Of a DNA stretch of 64,000 nucleotides, positions 46,604 to 51,082 are shown one piece after another. Numbering within the stretch: position 1 is the stretch's first letter; each line of letters begins with the position of its first letter. A model generated the notes under the pieces. It saw nothing but the letters and a program-made list of their open reading frames with translations, searched no databases and was not told where the DNA came from. The position numbers and the translations under genes are program-made. Source of the DNA: Cryobacterium sp. PH31-AA6 (GTDB lineage Bacteria; Actinomycetota; Actinomycetes; Actinomycetales; Microbacteriaceae); the NCBI RefSeq assembly GCF_030063195.1, contig NZ_JASISS010000002.1, forward strand, positions 248,001 through 312,000, in the 5' to 3' direction.

Positions 46604-46610
46604 GGGTCAA

Positions 46611-46616
46611 AGCCTA
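46611..46616 (-). promoter_or_regulatory. -10 element for the ANTAR regulator gene
   Basis: TAGGCT on the minus strand at -13 to -8 from the GTG, close to leaderless spacing. It lies next to the tRNA-Leu -10 on the other strand. Confidence 0.45.
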
Positions 46617-46619
46617 CGG

Positions 46620-46625
46620 TATTCT
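46620..46625 (+). promoter_or_regulatory. Candidate -10 for tRNA-Leu
   Basis: TATTCT on the plus strand, 16 bases before the tRNA 5' end. Confidence 0.4.
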
Positions 46626-46641
46626 GATCCAGGTGTTGTGA

Positions 46642-46727
46642 GCCGGTGTGGCGGAATGGCAGACGCGGAGCACTCAAAATGCTTTGTTCGAGAGGACGTG
46701 TGGGTTCGAGTCCCACCACCGGTACCA
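46642..46727 (+). tRNA. tRNA-Leu (anticodon CAA)
   Basis: An 86-base class II tRNA. The acceptor stem GCCGGTG pairs with CACCGGT (one G-T pair), then discriminator A and an encoded CCA. The anticodon loop CTCAAAA (46673-46679) gives CAA at 46675-46677, reading the UUG leucine codon. A variable arm of tRNA-Leu length is between the anticodon and T arms, and the T loop TTCGAGT is standard. It stands alone, not in a cluster. Confidence 0.95.
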
Positions 46728-46818
46728 ACACCCTGGCTCTTCACAGCGTCGAAGCGCCGTCGATCAGGCCCCGCGGAACTTCGCGAGCGGGTTATGACCC
46801 GATCGGGTGATCGAGGAC

Positions 46819-46824
46819 TAGCGT
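46819..46824 (+). promoter_or_regulatory. -10 element for leaderless FAD oxidoreductase gene
   Basis: TAGCGT at -12 to -7 from the GTG at 46831. A GGAGG also lies only two bases before the GTG, too close to be typical. Confidence 0.4.
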
Positions 46825-46830
46825 GGAGGC

Positions 46831-48210
46831 GTGTCCGCTCACGCGATCGACCCAGGGACCGCCTACGCCGCCGGTGTGGAGCGCCTCCTCGAGAGTTATC
46901 GGGCGGTGCCGCCGACGGCATCCGTGCGGCTCGCCAAGCCCACCTCGAACCTGTTCCGGGTGCGTGCGAAGACGAACGTCAGGGGCCTGGAGACGTCGGG
47001 ATTGACGGGCGTCATCGCGATCGATCCGGGAGCGCGAACGGCGGACGTGGGTGGCATGTGCACCTACGAGGATCTTGTCGCCGCGACGCTGCCCCACGGG
47101 TTGGCGCCGCTGGTTGTGCCGCAGCTGAAGACCATCACCCTGGGCGGCGCCGTCACCGGTCTCGGCATCGAGTCCACGTCCTTCCGCAACGGCCTGCCGC
47201 ACGAGTCGGTGCGGGAGTCAGTCATCCTCACCGGCGCGGGACAGCTGGTCACCGCCTCTCCGACCGAGCATGAAGACCTGTATCGGGCCTTCCCCAACTC
47301 GTACGGCACTCTCGGCTACGCGGTGCGGCTCTGCATAGAGCTGGAGCCGGTCCTGCCGTTCGTCGCGCTCCGGCACCTGCGGTTCCACTCGCTCACCGAG
47401 CTCGTCGCCGCGATGGACCGGATCATCCAGACCGGCGCGTCGGACGGCACCCGGGTGGACTACCTCGACGGTGTGGTGTTCAGCGCCGAGGAGAGCTACC
47501 TCTGTCTGGGCACGCAGACCGCGACCCCCGGCCCGGTCAGCGACTACACCGGCCGAAAGATCTACTACCGCTCGATCCAGCACGACGGCCCCGCCAGGCA
47601 CGACCGGCTGACGATTCACGACTACCTGTGGCGGTGGGACACCGACTGGTTCTGGTGCTCGGAGGCGTTCGGCGCGCAGCGGCCCGGGATTCGCCGACTC
47701 TGGCCGCGACGCTATCGGCGGAGCAGCTTTTACTCCACGCTGATGCGCTACGAACAGCGCTTCCGGATTGGAGATCGCCTCGAGCGACTCGGCGGCCGTC
47801 CGCCGCGCGAACGCGTCGTTCAGGACGTCGAGGTGCCGATCGAGCGGTCCGCCGAATTCCTGGACTGGTTTCTTAACACCGTGCCGATCGCGCCGATCTG
47901 GCTGTGCCCGCTGCGCTTGCGGGGCGAGAGCACCTGGCCGCTGTACCCGCTCCGGCCCCAGCGGAGCTACCTGAACGTCGGATTCTGGTCCACGGTGCCG
48001 GTGGGGACTACCGAGGGGCAGACGAACCGTCTGATCGAACGCAAGGTCAGCGAGCTCCACGGCCACAAATCGCTGTACTCCGACTCGTACTACTCCCCCG
48101 AAGAATTCGCTGAGCTCTATGGCGGCGACACCTACCGTGACGTGAAGAACCGGTATGACCCCGATTCTCGTCTCCTCAACCTCTATGCGAAGGCGGTGCA
48201 ACGACGATGA
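46831..48210 (+). CDS. bfaA: FAD-binding oxidoreductase, 10-methyl branched fatty acid reductase-like
   Basis: A 459-residue FAD_binding_4 flavoprotein. The FAD domain reads TGVIAIDPGARTADVGGMCTYEDLV, then LKTITLGGAVTGLGIESTSFRNGLPHESV and FPNSYGTLGYAVRL. This set matches the flavoprotein encoded next to ufaA1 in mycobacteria (Rv0449c; BfaA/TmsA), which reduces a 10-methylene to a 10-methyl fatty acid on phospholipid. It is also distantly similar to DprE1. The stop overlaps the next gene, a lipid methyltransferase, which supports the pathway. I name it bfaA by analogy; the activity is inferred. Confidence 0.75.
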   Translation: MSAHAIDPGTAYAAGVERLLESYRAVPPTASVRLAKPTSNLFRVRAKTNVRGLETSGLTGVIAIDPGARTADVGGMCTYEDLVAATLPHGLAPLVVPQLKTITLGGAVTGLGIESTSFRNGLPHESVRESVILTGAGQLVTASPTEHEDLYRAFPNSYGTLGYAVRLCIELEPVLPFVALRHLRFHSLTELVAAMDRIIQTGASDGTRVDYLDGVVFSAEESYLCLGTQTATPGPVSDYTGRKIYYRSIQHDGPARHDRLTIHDYLWRWDTDWFWCSEAFGAQRPGIRRLWPRRYRRSSFYSTLMRYEQRFRIGDRLERLGGRPPRERVVQDVEVPIERSAEFLDWFLNTVPIAPIWLCPLRLRGESTWPLYPLRPQRSYLNVGFWSTVPVGTTEGQTNRLIERKVSELHGHKSLYSDSYYSPEEFAELYGGDTYRDVKNRYDPDSRLLNLYAKAVQRR

Positions 48211-49562
48211 CCACATTCAAGGAACGTTCGCCGAAGAGTTCGGGGACACCGGGGAAGGGGCTCAGACCGGGGAAGCCGGAGCCGACCCGGAAGCTCGGCC
48301 TGGCCGAGATCATGGAGATTCTCGCCGGTGGTCGCCTCCCGCTCCGATTCACGGCCTACGACGGGAGCGCCGCGGGCCCGCCGGACGCACCGCTCGGGCT
48401 GGAGCTGAAATCGCCGCGCGGAACGACCTACCTGGCCACCGGGCGCGGCGACCTGGGCCTGGCCCGCGCCTACATCGCCGGTGACCTCGACGTGCACGGT
48501 GTGCACCCGGGCGACCCCTACGAGCTGCTCACGGCACTCGCCGGCGACCTGGTCTTCAAGCTGCCCTCTCCGTCAGTGGCGGCCGAGATCATCCGCTCCA
48601 TCGGCGCCCTGCACCTGCGCCCGATCAAACCGCCGCCCCAGGAGGCGCCACCACGCTGGCGCCGCGTCGCCTGGGGTCTCCGACACACCCGGGCCAGGGA
48701 CGCCGACGCGATCCACCACCACTACGACGTGTCGAATGCCTTCTACGAATGGGTGCTCGGGCCGTCGATGACCTACACCTGCGCCTGCTATCCGAGCTCA
48801 GACGCCTTGCTGGATGAGGCGCAGGAGAACAAGTACCGGCTGGTTTTCGAGAAGCTGCGGCTGAGACCGGGCGACCGGCTGCTCGACGTCGGATGCGGCT
48901 GGGGCGGTATGGTGCGCTACGCCGCGCGCCGCGGCGTCAGAGCCACCGGCGTGACCCTCTCGCAACAGCAGGCCGCGTGGGCGCAGCAGGCGATCGAGGA
49001 GGAGGGCCTGACCGATCTCGCCGAGGTCCGCTACGGCGACTACCGGGACATCGGAGAGACCGGATTTGACGCCGTATCGTCGATCGGGCTGCTCGAGCAC
49101 ATCGGCGTGCGCAACTATCCGTCCTACTTCCGCTTCCTGCAATCCCGGCTGCGCCCGGGCGGGCTGCTGCTCAACCATTGCATCACCCGGCCGGACAACC
49201 GATCCGAGGCATCCCCCCGCGGGTTCATCGACCGTTACGTCTTCCCCGACGGGGAGCTCACGGGCTCGGGCCGCATCATCGGCGCCGCACAGGACGAAGG
49301 ACTCGAGGTGCTGCACGAGGAGAACCTGCGCCAGCACTACGCCATGACACTGCGCGACTGGTGCGCCAACCTCGTCGAGCACTGGGAAGAGGCGGTCGCC
49401 GATGTGGGACTGCCGACCGCGAAGGTGTGGGGACTGTACATGGCCGGGTCACGACTCGCCTTCGAAACCGGAGGCATCCAACTGCACCAGGTGCTGATGC
49501 TCAGGCCCGATGCCGGGGACGAAGCGGGCGACCTGCCGCTCCGGCCCTGGTGGACGCCCTGA
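48207..49562 (+). CDS. bfaB: Lipid SAM-dependent methyltransferase, cyclopropane/10-methylene fatty acid synthase family
   Basis: A 451-residue Cfa/UfaA1-like enzyme. The SAM site is LLDVGCGWGGMVRYAARRG. The Cfa catalytic segments are present: MTYTCACY (active-site Cys), SIGLLEHIG (Glu) and LLLNHCITRP (His). It methylates the double bond of a phospholipid acyl chain; with the overlapping FAD reductase the likely product is a 10-methyl branched fatty acid such as tuberculostearate. An alternative is a plain cyclopropane synthase. The ATG overlaps the upstream stop. A terminator follows, so the operon has two genes. Confidence 0.78.
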   Translation: MTTFKERSPKSSGTPGKGLRPGKPEPTRKLGLAEIMEILAGGRLPLRFTAYDGSAAGPPDAPLGLELKSPRGTTYLATGRGDLGLARAYIAGDLDVHGVHPGDPYELLTALAGDLVFKLPSPSVAAEIIRSIGALHLRPIKPPPQEAPPRWRRVAWGLRHTRARDADAIHHHYDVSNAFYEWVLGPSMTYTCACYPSSDALLDEAQENKYRLVFEKLRLRPGDRLLDVGCGWGGMVRYAARRGVRATGVTLSQQQAAWAQQAIEEEGLTDLAEVRYGDYRDIGETGFDAVSSIGLLEHIGVRNYPSYFRFLQSRLRPGGLLLNHCITRPDNRSEASPRGFIDRYVFPDGELTGSGRIIGAAQDEGLEVLHEENLRQHYAMTLRDWCANLVEHWEEAVADVGLPTAKVWGLYMAGSRLAFETGGIQLHQVLMLRPDAGDEAGDLPLRPWWTP

Positions 49563-49583
49563 ACCGCGACGCGCGGGGAACAG

Positions 49584-49624
49584 GAAAGCCCCGCCAGCCG
49601 GCTGAACCGGGTGGCGGGGCTTTC
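49584..49624. terminator. Bidirectional terminator between the methyltransferase gene and pyk
   Basis: A 13-bp perfect stem (GAAAGCCCCGCCA / TGGCGGGGCTTTC) with an inner CCGG pairing; T-rich ends on both strands suit convergent genes. Confidence 0.85.
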
Positions 49625-49636
49625 TCGTGAACGGCT

Positions 49637-51082
49637 CTAGTTCTTGGCGTAAGCCGGGTGAACCTCGTTGTGCGCATCGCCGACGCGGTGCACACGGATG
49701 TCGTTCGTGGAACCGACGATTCCGGGAGGGGATCCGCTGATCACGACGACGGTGTCGCCGACCTCGGCCAGTTTCTGGCTGAGCAGGATGTCATCCACCT
49801 GGCCGAACATGGCGTCCGTGTGGGTGACCCGGTCGACCAGGTACGTCTGGATGCCCCAGGTGAGGGCAAGACGGCGACGGATGCCGGGCTCCGGGGTGAA
49901 CGCCAGCATCGGGATCTTCGACCGCAGGCGAGACATCCGCCGGGCCGAATCGCCAGACTCGGTGAAGATGCAGAGGTACTTGGCCTCGACGAAATCGGCC
50001 ACCTCGATGGCAGCGAGGGTGATCGCGCCACCCTGGGTGCGCGGCTTGTTCGTCAGCGGCGCGATGCGCTCCAGGCCGTGGTCCTCGGTCGATGCCACGA
50101 TCCGTGCCATGGTCTGAACCGTGACGACGGGGTATTCCCCGACGCTGGTCTCACCACTGAGCATGACCGCGTCGGCACCGTCGAGCACGGCGTTCGCCAC
50201 GTCGGAGGTTTCGGCGCGGGTCGGCACCGGGCTGTGGATCATGGATTCCAGCATCTGGGTCGCCACGATGACCGGCTTGGCCATGCGGCGAGCGAGCTCG
50301 ACCGCGTGCTTCTGCACGATCGGCACGGCCTCAAGCGGAAGTTCGACACCCAGGTCGCCGCGAGCGACCATGATGGCGTCGAACGCGTCGACGATGCCCT
50401 CGAGGTTCTCGACGGCCTGCGGCTTCTCGATCTTCGCGATCACGGGGACGCGACGGCCTTCCTCGGCCATGATCTCGTGCACGCGGGTGATGTCGGCGGC
50501 GTCACGCACGAAGGACAGTGCGATCAGGTCCGTTCCGAGGCGGAGGCCCCAACGCAGGTCGGCCTCGTCCTTGTCGGACAGGGCCGGAACGTTGACGGCA
50601 ACGCCGGGCAGGTTGATGCCCTTGTTGTTCGACACCGGGCCGGCGACGATGACCTTGGTGGTCACAACGGTGTCGCTGCTGGAAACCACCTCGACCTTGA
50701 CCTTGCCGTCGTCGATGAGGAGGAAGTCGCCGGGCTTGACGTCCTGCGGAAGTCCCTTGTACGTCGTGCCGGAGAGTTCCCGGGTGCCGACGATCTCATC
50801 CGTGGTGATCTTAAAGATGTCGCCAACGGCCAGTTCGTAAGGGCCGCCTTCAAACTTGCCGAGACGGATCTTCGGCCCCTGCAGGTCGACCATGACGGCG
50901 ACCGCACGGCCGGAGTCGTTCGCGGCCTTCCGCACATTCGCGTAAACGCCCTCGTGGACTTGATAGTCCCCGTGGCTGAGGTTCATCCGGCAGACGTCGA
51001 CGCCCGCATCAATGAGCGCTCGTATTTGATCGTAGCTGGATGCTGCCGGCCCGAGGGTGGCGACGATTTTGGCGCGTCTCAT
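49637..51082 (-). CDS. pyk: Pyruvate kinase
   Basis: A 481-residue glycolytic kinase. It has RRAKIVATLGPAASSYDQI at the N-terminus, VDLQGPKIRLGKF, the catalytic PVIAKIEKPQAVENL (with the conserved Lys), DAIMVARGDLGVELP and PVIVATQMLESMI. It makes ATP and pyruvate from phosphoenolpyruvate. GGAGA lies about 9 bases before the ATG. It is last gene of the strand after gltD, with a small hairpin between them. Confidence 0.96.
   Translation of the reverse strand: MRRAKIVATLGPAASSYDQIRALIDAGVDVCRMNLSHGDYQVHEGVYANVRKAANDSGRAVAVMVDLQGPKIRLGKFEGGPYELAVGDIFKITTDEIVGTRELSGTTYKGLPQDVKPGDFLLIDDGKVKVEVVSSSDTVVTTKVIVAGPVSNNKGINLPGVAVNVPALSDKDEADLRWGLRLGTDLIALSFVRDAADITRVHEIMAEEGRRVPVIAKIEKPQAVENLEGIVDAFDAIMVARGDLGVELPLEAVPIVQKHAVELARRMAKPVIVATQMLESMIHSPVPTRAETSDVANAVLDGADAVMLSGETSVGEYPVVTVQTMARIVASTEDHGLERIAPLTNKPRTQGGAITLAAIEVADFVEAKYLCIFTESGDSARRMSRLRSKIPMLAFTPEPGIRRRLALTWGIQTYLVDRVTHTDAMFGQVDDILLSQKLAEVGDTVVVISGSPPGIVGSTNDIRVHRVGDAHNEVHPAYAKN

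Follow-up and report, generated by a model that had tools for sequence, protein, structure and literature searches.

A BfaA–BfaB-type operon for predicted mid-chain methylation of fatty acids in Cryobacterium sp. PH31-AA6

Organization of the locus

The window, a stretch of 64,000 nucleotides from Cryobacterium sp. PH31-AA6 (contig NZ_JASISS010000002.1), contains two overlapping ORFs between a tRNA gene and pyk. A preliminary description, made from the sequence alone, had reported this arrangement and a host from the Microbacteriaceae; the coordinates, the 4-bp overlap, and the neighbours were all verified, and the host does belong to that family, within the genus Cryobacterium. The features are as follows, in window positions.

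46642..46727, plus strand: tRNA-Leu (CAA), left neighbour, outside the operon (ARAGORN)
46734..49572 (approximate), plus strand: segment that four other Cryobacterium lack at this site (alignment to tRNA-Leu/pyk intervals; left edge set by identity to G239, right edge approximate)
46831..48210, plus strand: bfaA orthologue, predicted FAD_binding_4 reductase of methylene fatty-acyl chains (ORF, 459 aa, GTG start)
48207..48210, plus strand: ATGA overlap of the bfaA stop (TGA, 48208–48210) and the bfaB start (ATG, 48207–48209)
48207..49562, plus strand: bfaB orthologue, predicted SAM-dependent mid-chain fatty-acyl methyltransferase of the CMAS/Cfa family (ORF, 451 aa, ATG start)
49584..49624, no strand assigned: inverted repeat with 18-nt arms, 94% complementary, and a 5-nt loop (repeat search)
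49637..51082, minus strand: pyk (pyruvate kinase), right neighbour, outside the operon (ORF)

The first product matched Pfam FAD_binding_4 (PF01565, E = 4.9e-8) and the second CMAS (PF02353, E = 9.1e-96). An FAD_binding_4 gene with a CMAS-family gene directly after it on the same strand, in many cases overlapping, is the arrangement of a BfaAB system, and the ATGA overlap likely couples the translation of the two. bfaB lay directly downstream of bfaA in 116 of 117 bfaA-bearing loci (a set in which some genomes were entered twice and the lone exception, L159, reaches a contig end), so the pairing is not attributable to chance. Besides the pair, no gene-like frame was found between tRNA-Leu and pyk, the latter having a single match per genome in all 12 genomes searched. 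The inverted repeat is possibly a terminator common to bfaB and pyk; a similar stem–loop precedes the end of pyk at the empty site of G239. Scans of the locus for sigma-70 promoters and for consensus terminators found none, the inverted repeat included.

Orthology with mycobacterial BfaA and BfaB

Among Mycobacterium-type genomes, in which no experimentally tested BfaAB sequence was identified by name, BfaA was 71–77% identical to its counterparts in nine (f6/g92) and BfaB was 71–77% identical to those in four, where the next CMAS matches reached at most 38%. These values compare with 49–51% for PolA and 58% for Pyk. Within its own genome, the other matches to BfaA were only 29–31% identical over approximately 120 residues. 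On these sequence comparisons, both proteins are BfaA/BfaB orthologues, with other flavoproteins and Cfa paralogues more distant. The placement of the reductase with BfaA rather than with unrelated flavoproteins agrees with the preliminary description, and its assignment to DprE1 or another flavoprotein subgroup was rejected, the matches to these being limited to a distant fold and the FAD domain. The predicted BfaA model, used for fold only because its mean pLDDT was 67.1, resembled cytokinin dehydrogenases and DprE1 (VAO/PCMH-type fold, with low confidence).

Tuberculostearate synthesis was at one time attributed to UfaA1, a methyltransferase of the Cfa type. Its locus in M. tuberculosis (Rv0447c–Rv0449c) is presumably not the orthologous locus of the Cryobacterium pair. 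The preliminary description had likened the pair to this locus as the mycobacterial source of 10-methyl stearate; the likeness to a 10-methyl stearate pair stood, in that the genes are orthologous to bfaAB of proven function, but the identification with UfaA1 did not. Blitzblau et al. 2021 (PMC7791843) set the bfa genes apart from ufaA1 and uma1. A search for DUF1365 (PF07103) gave no match in the window genome or in any of the seven other Microbacteriaceae carriers covered. Of four Mycobacterium-type genomes examined, three had DUF1365 genes, all more than 500 kb from bfaAB, and the surroundings of these genes yielded no BfaA- or BfaB-like neighbour. The UfaA1/DUF1365 locus was accordingly rejected as the homologue. 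The absence of DUF1365 as a third gene, which had been read as a departure from the mycobacterial arrangement, is thus real but no deviation, because mycobacterial DUF1365 genes are this distant from bfaAB. In seven Mycobacterium-type loci, the genes beside the pair encoded an amidase (seven loci), RecR (four), YbaB (four), and a polyketide cyclase (four), the same kinds of neighbours as Machida et al. 2017 (PMC5660069) name around bfaAB in their Figure 2 legend.

Active site of BfaB

The BfaB residues C192, E297, H324, I326, and Y378 were invariant across 19 sequences and aligned with those of the solved Cfa 6bqc; we take them to be the residues of the Cfa bicarbonate-binding site. The position preceding the catalytic Glu varied with lineage: it was Leu (Leu296 here) in all 42 Microbacteriaceae BfaB rows and Thr in all 81 other BfaB rows compared. 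Phe occupied this position in 6bqc and in those mycobacterial paralogue loci that yielded the motif (19 of 24), and we infer from these alignments that it may be a mark of Cfa. Where a Cfa would have this Phe and no dedicated reductase, the protein described here has Leu296 and a linked reductase.

Distribution and horizontal transfer

Matches to BfaA occurred in 43 of 57 Cryobacterium genomes, leaving 14 without a match, and in 16 of 249 sampled Microbacteriaceae genomes representing five of 85 genera; the other carriers in the family included Mycetocola, a Leifsonia, and Agromyces. In the phylogenetic tree, the 23 Microbacteriaceae rows formed one clade (SH-aLRT 100) inside the Mycobacteriales-type rows, and a constraint holding the latter together without the Microbacteriaceae was rejected (AU p = 0.0067). 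The dN to two Mycobacterium-type genomes was 0.16–0.17 for bfaA and bfaB versus 0.35–0.37 for pyk. Given this nesting, the best reading of the sequences is that bfaAB came into the Microbacteriaceae from a Mycobacteriales lineage by transfer. Constraining Cryobacterium to one clade gave AU p values of 0.049 and 0.026 (first and larger tree, respectively), which is only suggestive of two separate entries into the genus.

The tRNA-Leu/pyk interval was empty in all four other Cryobacterium compared (G239, G078, G141, and G193), which have the same tRNA gene there, bearing out the earlier view that the pair sits alone at a plausible insertion spot. Integrase-driven insertion at the tRNA gene, or carriage as mobile-element cargo, was rejected: there was no integrase, and a repeat search found no repeats linking the two ends of the segment. 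A compositional island was also rejected, the G+C content of the pair (0.63–0.72) resembling that of its flanks. Plasmid carriage fared no better, with six matches among 72,556 plasmid records, none from Microbacteriaceae and all predicted to be non-mobilizable.

Predicted function and host fatty acids

We consider it likely that the operon is a BfaA–BfaB system of Mycobacteriales origin that methylates the host's own monoenes mid-chain, its chemistry being carried over by analogy from the orthologues. The membrane desaturase of the host itself would most likely supply the monoene that serves as substrate, and BfaA, with FAD and NADPH, would reduce the methylene intermediate to a saturated methyl branch. 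Mycobacterial work suggests that fluidizing double bonds would in this way be swapped for oxidation-resistant mid-chain branches, tuning membrane fluidity.

The earlier doubt about the substrate held up as far as the reported fatty acids go, the usual monoenes being missing from the published table: Table 2 of PMC10067761, covering 19 Cryobacterium type strains, has no C16:1, C18:1, or 10-methyl column. FAME profiles could be matched to the presence of bfaAB for two of these 19 species, C. fucosi Hh4 and C. lactosi Sr59, and in both the ten columns, obtained at one temperature (15 °C) and on one medium, hold no 10-methyl, cyclopropane, C16:1, or C18:1 acids and total 97.3% and 96.8%, respectively. 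The same table reports iso/anteiso C15:1 and iso-C17:1 in Cryobacterium, with branched C15:1 among the acids of the two carriers, and an iso or anteiso monoene would be a more likely substrate than oleate. The window genome has one PF00487 desaturase, which was 30–33% identical over partial lengths to proteins of three Mycobacterium-type genomes and had no match in a fourth; judged by sequence, it is not a mycobacterial orthologue. Its typing returned NCBIfam hits that were all far below cut-off and none in the PDB. PF00487 was present in all 16 bfaAB carriers, a co-occurrence that is uninformative because 225 of the 249 Microbacteriaceae genomes also have it. As for expression in a foreign host, the bfaAB operon of Agromyces subbeticus, from the same family, gave 0% oleate conversion in E. 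coli, where seven of 11 operons failed, three of these from Mycobacterium (PMC7791843).

We tentatively raise the possibility, as yet short of an even chance, that the Microbacteriaceae BfaAB branch, marked by Leu in place of Thr before the catalytic Glu, has shifted its preference to iso/anteiso monoenes and yields doubly branched acids. If so, membrane fatty acids would carry a terminal iso or anteiso branch plus a mid-chain methyl, and in a cold-adapted genus BfaAB would regulate fluidity like a valve by acting on branched C15:1 and C17:1. Retention-time fatty acid kits would overlook or misname such acids, so that a class of membrane lipid would be invisible to this kind of profiling.

Alternative explanations

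The same enzymes may instead form the ordinary products, 10-methyl stearate or palmitate, from oleate or palmitoleate, synthesized or taken up, that is available only in small amounts or under certain conditions. M. chlorophenolicum BfaAB modified only 18:1 delta-9 among the acids tested (PMC5660069), Thermomonospora curvata BfaAB prefers C16–C18 (PMC7791843), some PUFAs have been reported in Cryobacterium (PMC10878007), and the fatty acid profiles come from a single growth condition. We nevertheless regard this as rather unlikely, in view of the missing columns of the 19-strain table, the non-mycobacterial desaturase, the lineage-wide Leu296, and an Antarctic survey in which cis fatty acids, within the Actinobacteria, are named for Rhodococcus only. 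Far less credible is that BfaB is a cyclopropane synthase here and BfaA has some other role: BfaB belongs to the CMAS family and is the sole CMAS protein above cut-off in the genome, but it is almost invariably accompanied by its partner gene, has Leu where Cfa has Phe, and occurs in two carriers with no tabulated cyclopropane acids. That the pair modifies some lipid other than an acyl chain, for example the chain of a menaquinone or a carotenoid, has slighter prospects still; the FAD_binding_4 fold takes varied substrates and the usual acyl substrate is without report in the host, yet the proteins are highly identical to acyl-specific BfaAB-type proteins and conserve the Cfa active-site residues.

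It is improbable that the pair is a relic, transferred and formerly used but now silent or decaying in Cryobacterium. In its favour, three of the 43 bfaA matches in Cryobacterium are interrupted or partial (C. flavum, L112, which by contig position corresponds to G649, has an in-frame stop; G674 and G666 have a fragment or partial gene), 14 of the 57 genomes have none, the published table lists no product, and BfaA is 74–86% identical between Cryobacterium species versus 90–96% for Pyk. However, neither reading frame is disrupted here, the invariant residues are all present, and matches occur across most of the genus. In comparisons with ten loci, dN/dS was 0.17–0.32 for bfaA and 0.16–0.24 for bfaB (0.09–0.41 in four closer pairs), and values near 0.2 suggest that the operon is in use.

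Comparison with known systems

Tuberculostearic-type acids are markers of mycobacteria and their relatives. The complete operon in most sampled members of Cryobacterium, a glacier genus, places these genes beyond the mycobacterial lineage and poses a puzzle: BfaAB enzymes in a host not reported to have their usual substrate, with a single residue as a candidate for substrate choice.

Machida et al. 2017 (PMC5660069) described one of the closest parallels, BfaA–BfaB of Mycobacterium chlorophenolicum, which has the same gene order, domain pair, and 4-bp overlap. In E. coli, its BfaB alone gave a methylene acid and BfaA with BfaB gave 10-methyl stearate. In the comparison, the copies in M. vanbaalenii (L139) and M. 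austroafricanum (L132) stood in for it and were 73–75% identical to those of Cryobacterium. The Cryobacterium operon differs in lacking the recR, YbaB, amidase, and polyketide cyclase neighbours, in having Leu296 where the mycobacterial BfaB has Thr, and in belonging to a host without reported oleate. In M. smegmatis (PMC10127668), MSMEG_6283–cfa is likewise an operon of an FAD protein and Cfa, and deletion of the orthologue (cfa) abolishes tuberculostearic acid; unlike Cryobacterium, that host has a mycobacterial membrane with straight-chain monoenes.

The bfaAB (tms) operons of Thermobifida fusca, T. curvata, and A. subbeticus have the same two genes (Blitzblau et al. 2021, PMC7791843), a likeness drawn from the published description; in E. 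coli, those of T. fusca and T. curvata acted on oleate. The gamma-proteobacterial TmpB–TmpA pair (PMC7791843) includes a methyltransferase of the same family, which makes 10-methylene acids, but its gene order is reversed and TmpA is stated there to have no homology to BfaA. The BfaAB kind of system is already known, and the Cryobacterium operon is an added member of it.

Operon structure and the BfaB active site

The preliminary description had placed a pair of genes with a four-base overlap at 46831–49562, between a tRNA gene and pyk, and both the reading frames and their neighbours were recovered there:

46642–46727: tRNA-Leu(caa), left neighbour of bfaAB
46831–48210, + strand: bfaA, reading frame with FAD_binding_4 (Pfam)
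48207–49562, + strand: bfaB, reading frame with CMAS (Pfam)
49637–51082, − strand: pyk, right neighbour of bfaAB

The bfaA stop and the bfaB start share the sequence ATGA, and the G+C of bfaAB resembles that of its flanks. The genome, that of a Cryobacterium (3.68 Mb, 63 contigs), contains a single copy of BfaA, one CMAS protein that passes the Pfam cut-off, and one PF00487 desaturase. A Shine–Dalgarno-like GGAGG ends one base 5′ of the bfaA GTG (46820–46833), closer than the normal spacing, so the true start of bfaA may differ or its translation may be atypical.

In BfaB, the Cfa bicarbonate-site residues C192, E297, H324, I326, and Y378 were invariant in 19 BfaB proteins and aligned with the solved Cfa structure 6bqc. 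The position before E297 is occupied by Phe in 6bqc, as it is in 19 of 24 mycobacterial paralogue loci (the motif search was empty in the other five). Among BfaB rows, this position held Leu in all 42 from the Microbacteriaceae and Thr in all 81 others, mostly from Mycobacteriales; of the remaining columns occupied in the majority of rows, none fully separated the two sets. Across all BfaB compared, a set with duplicates, 54 had Leu, 87 had Thr, and two lacked the motif (L121, cut by a contig end, and L132). Leu is not unique to the Microbacteriaceae, because one locus from outside the family (L071) also carries it.

Relationship to the mycobacterial pair

BfaA was 71–77% identical to its matches in nine Mycobacterium-type genomes (group f6/g92), reaching 79% in one named Mycobacterium, and BfaB was 71–77% identical to its matches in four of these nine, in which the next CMAS matches did not exceed 38%. 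BfaB lay directly downstream of BfaA in 116 of 117 BfaA loci, with some genomes counted twice. The neighbours of the pair in seven Mycobacterium-type loci, whose frames were assigned with a simple rule on third-position G+C and one member per cluster checked against Pfam, were an amidase cluster (seven loci), RecR (four), YbaB (four), and a polyketide cyclase (four); the same kinds of bfaAB neighbour are given in the Figure 2 legend of Machida et al. 2017 (PMC5660069). DUF1365 had no match in the eight Microbacteriaceae bfaAB carriers searched, and in the six other genomes of the same search that have one it was on a separate contig or >500 kb from bfaAB. Blitzblau et al. 2021 treat the bfa genes as distinct from ufaA1, and describe a third ORF as present in some species only and dispensable (PMC7791843). 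The proposed match to the mycobacterial 10-methyl stearate pair was therefore correct, but the UfaA1/Rv0448c locus was the wrong counterpart. The predicted BfaA model (mean pLDDT 67.1) has a fold resembling those of cytokinin dehydrogenases and DprE1.

Distribution and origin

A BfaA match was present in 16 of the 249 Microbacteriaceae genomes sampled, which fell in 5 of 85 genera. For Cryobacterium the count was 43 of 57 genomes, and for a phylum-wide sample it was 24 of 396. Among the best 80 of 557 confirmed relatives, the named Microbacteriaceae carriers were Cryobacterium, Mycetocola, Leifsonia sp. Root4, and Agromyces. The 23 Microbacteriaceae rows formed one clade (SH-aLRT 100) next to Mycobacterium, within Mycobacteriales-type rows, in a quick tree built from 61 concatenated rows; in that tree, 15 of 58 inner branches were weak and the four-row outgroup did not form one side of a branch. 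Constraining the Mycobacteriales-type rows (including four metagenome rows, L129, L145, L167, and L173) together without the Microbacteriaceae was rejected (AU p 0.0067). Compared with Mycobacterium-type genomes, PolA and Pyk of the window genome were 49–51% and 58% identical, respectively, and dN to two of these genomes was 0.16–0.17 for bfaA and bfaB versus 0.35–0.37 for pyk. Within Cryobacterium the order was reversed, with BfaA (74–86%, fragments apart) less conserved than Pyk (90–96%). The data are best read as a transfer of bfaAB into the Microbacteriaceae, with its direction based on the tree and the patchy distribution within the family.

A metagenome-assembled genome labelled Acidobacteria (L167) carries mycobacterial-type bfaAB (BfaA 74%), a label that is likely to reflect mis-binning. 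BfaA relatives also occur on six plasmid-filed records (H1–H6) from Prescottella, Nocardia, Tsukamurella, Nonomuraea, and Variovorax; those of Variovorax, outside the Actinomycetota, have 44–45% identity.

Genomic sites, apparent selection, and possible decay

In each of the four other Cryobacterium genomes compared (G239, G078, G141, and G193), tRNA-Leu and pyk are present without the operon between them. In G239, which is identical to the window over 46604–46733, pyk and bfaAB are approximately 90 kb apart; bfaAB and pyk are on different contigs in G141 and G193, and G078 has no bfaAB. The window flank did not recur at any of 35 other Cryobacterium loci, a set in which some genomes count twice. 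When the flanks of 27 loci were compared, a few of them cut by contig ends, site groups of 12 and 7 emerged, the latter downstream of nrd-type genes, and the other eight loci each had a unique left flank; six of these loci, including the window, were unmatched on both sides. In a careful tree, the 27 Cryobacterium rows split into 19 (support 100/98) and 8 (98/94), and a single Cryobacterium clade was disfavoured (AU p 0.026). The site labels required nine changes on this tree, the minimum for ten labels. Turnover of the flanks, instead of movement of bfaAB, is excluded for the window site alone. The reading frames between tRNA-Leu and pyk include no integrase, and a repeat search showed no repeats at the segment ends.

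In one Cryobacterium lineage (L112, L116, L117, L079, and L088), bfaAB lies immediately downstream of glutaredoxin/nrdH and nrdI matches, with nrdE and nrdF, assigned by size and order, also upstream. The Agromyces bracchium locus (L124) has three neighbour clusters in common with this lineage, hinting at a common insertion site.

Suggesting that bfaAB is in use, dN/dS in comparisons of the window with ten other loci was 0.17–0.32 for bfaA and 0.16–0.24 for bfaB, and it was 0.09–0.41 in four closer pairs. Weighing against use, bfaA was broken or partial in 3 of 43 Cryobacterium matches: it has an in-frame stop in C. flavum (G649, matched by contig position to locus L112, 6001–7371), and in G666 and G674 it is incomplete (partial or a fragment). 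Loss of the pathway thus seems to be under way in some species. The window bfaAB is intact, apparently selected and horizontally acquired, and belongs to the known BfaAB kind.

Host fatty acids

A published study profiled 19 Cryobacterium type strains for fatty acids by MIDI retention times at 15 °C; its ten-column table has iso-C15:1, anteiso-C15:1, and iso-C17:1 as the sole monoenes and lists no 10-methyl acid (PMC10067761). Anteiso-C15:1 makes up 11.8% in C. fucosi Hh4 and 17.7% in C. lactosi Sr59, both bfaAB carriers, whose tabulated acids sum to 97.3% and 96.8%, respectively (PMC10067761). Branched C16:1 and C15:1 are reported for C. inferilacus (PMC12113805), and in an Antarctic survey a-C15:0 and a-C17:0 dominate most Actinobacteria, with some PUFAs in Cryobacterium (PMC10878007). 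The window desaturase was 77–97% identical to the best match in five other Microbacteriaceae genomes and 61–66% in two (G142 and G200), whereas of four Mycobacterium-type genomes, three gave matches of only 30–33% over parts of the protein and the fourth gave none. Taken together, the published profiles and the desaturase comparison indicate that the host of this BfaAB is one whose reported monoenes are mainly branched. The retention-time library is not known to include mid-chain methylated branched acids, so such acids could be hidden under other names. In Rathayibacter soli, another member of the Microbacteriaceae, summed feature 9 (C16:0 10-methyl and/or iso-C17:1 w9c) accounts for 50.8%, the feature number differing between text and table (PMC11294650); a mid-chain methyl acid may lie within this feature.

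Comparison with characterized BfaAB systems

Titles and abstracts on methyl-branched or cyclopropane fatty acids in Cryobacterium, Microbacteriaceae, and Agromyces, with subscription journals mostly outside the coverage, yielded no report of bfaAB in Cryobacterium. In E. coli, BfaB is reported to form the methylene acid, and BfaA with BfaB to form 10-methyl stearate, after the bfaB ribosome site was changed (PMC5660069); deletion of the orthologue in M. smegmatis abolished tuberculostearic acid (PMC10127668). For M. chlorophenolicum BfaAB, 18:1 delta-9 is given as the sole acid accepted (PMC5660069); the T. curvata BfaAB takes straight-chain C14–C20 acids with a double bond at delta-9 to delta-11 (PMC7791843). 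The nearest report in this literature is that of the Agromyces bfaAB, from the same family (PMC7791843). With oleate in E. coli, the A. subbeticus operon yielded no product, and neither did six others among the 11 operons reported (PMC7791843), a result that fits an altered substrate but also mere failure of expression.
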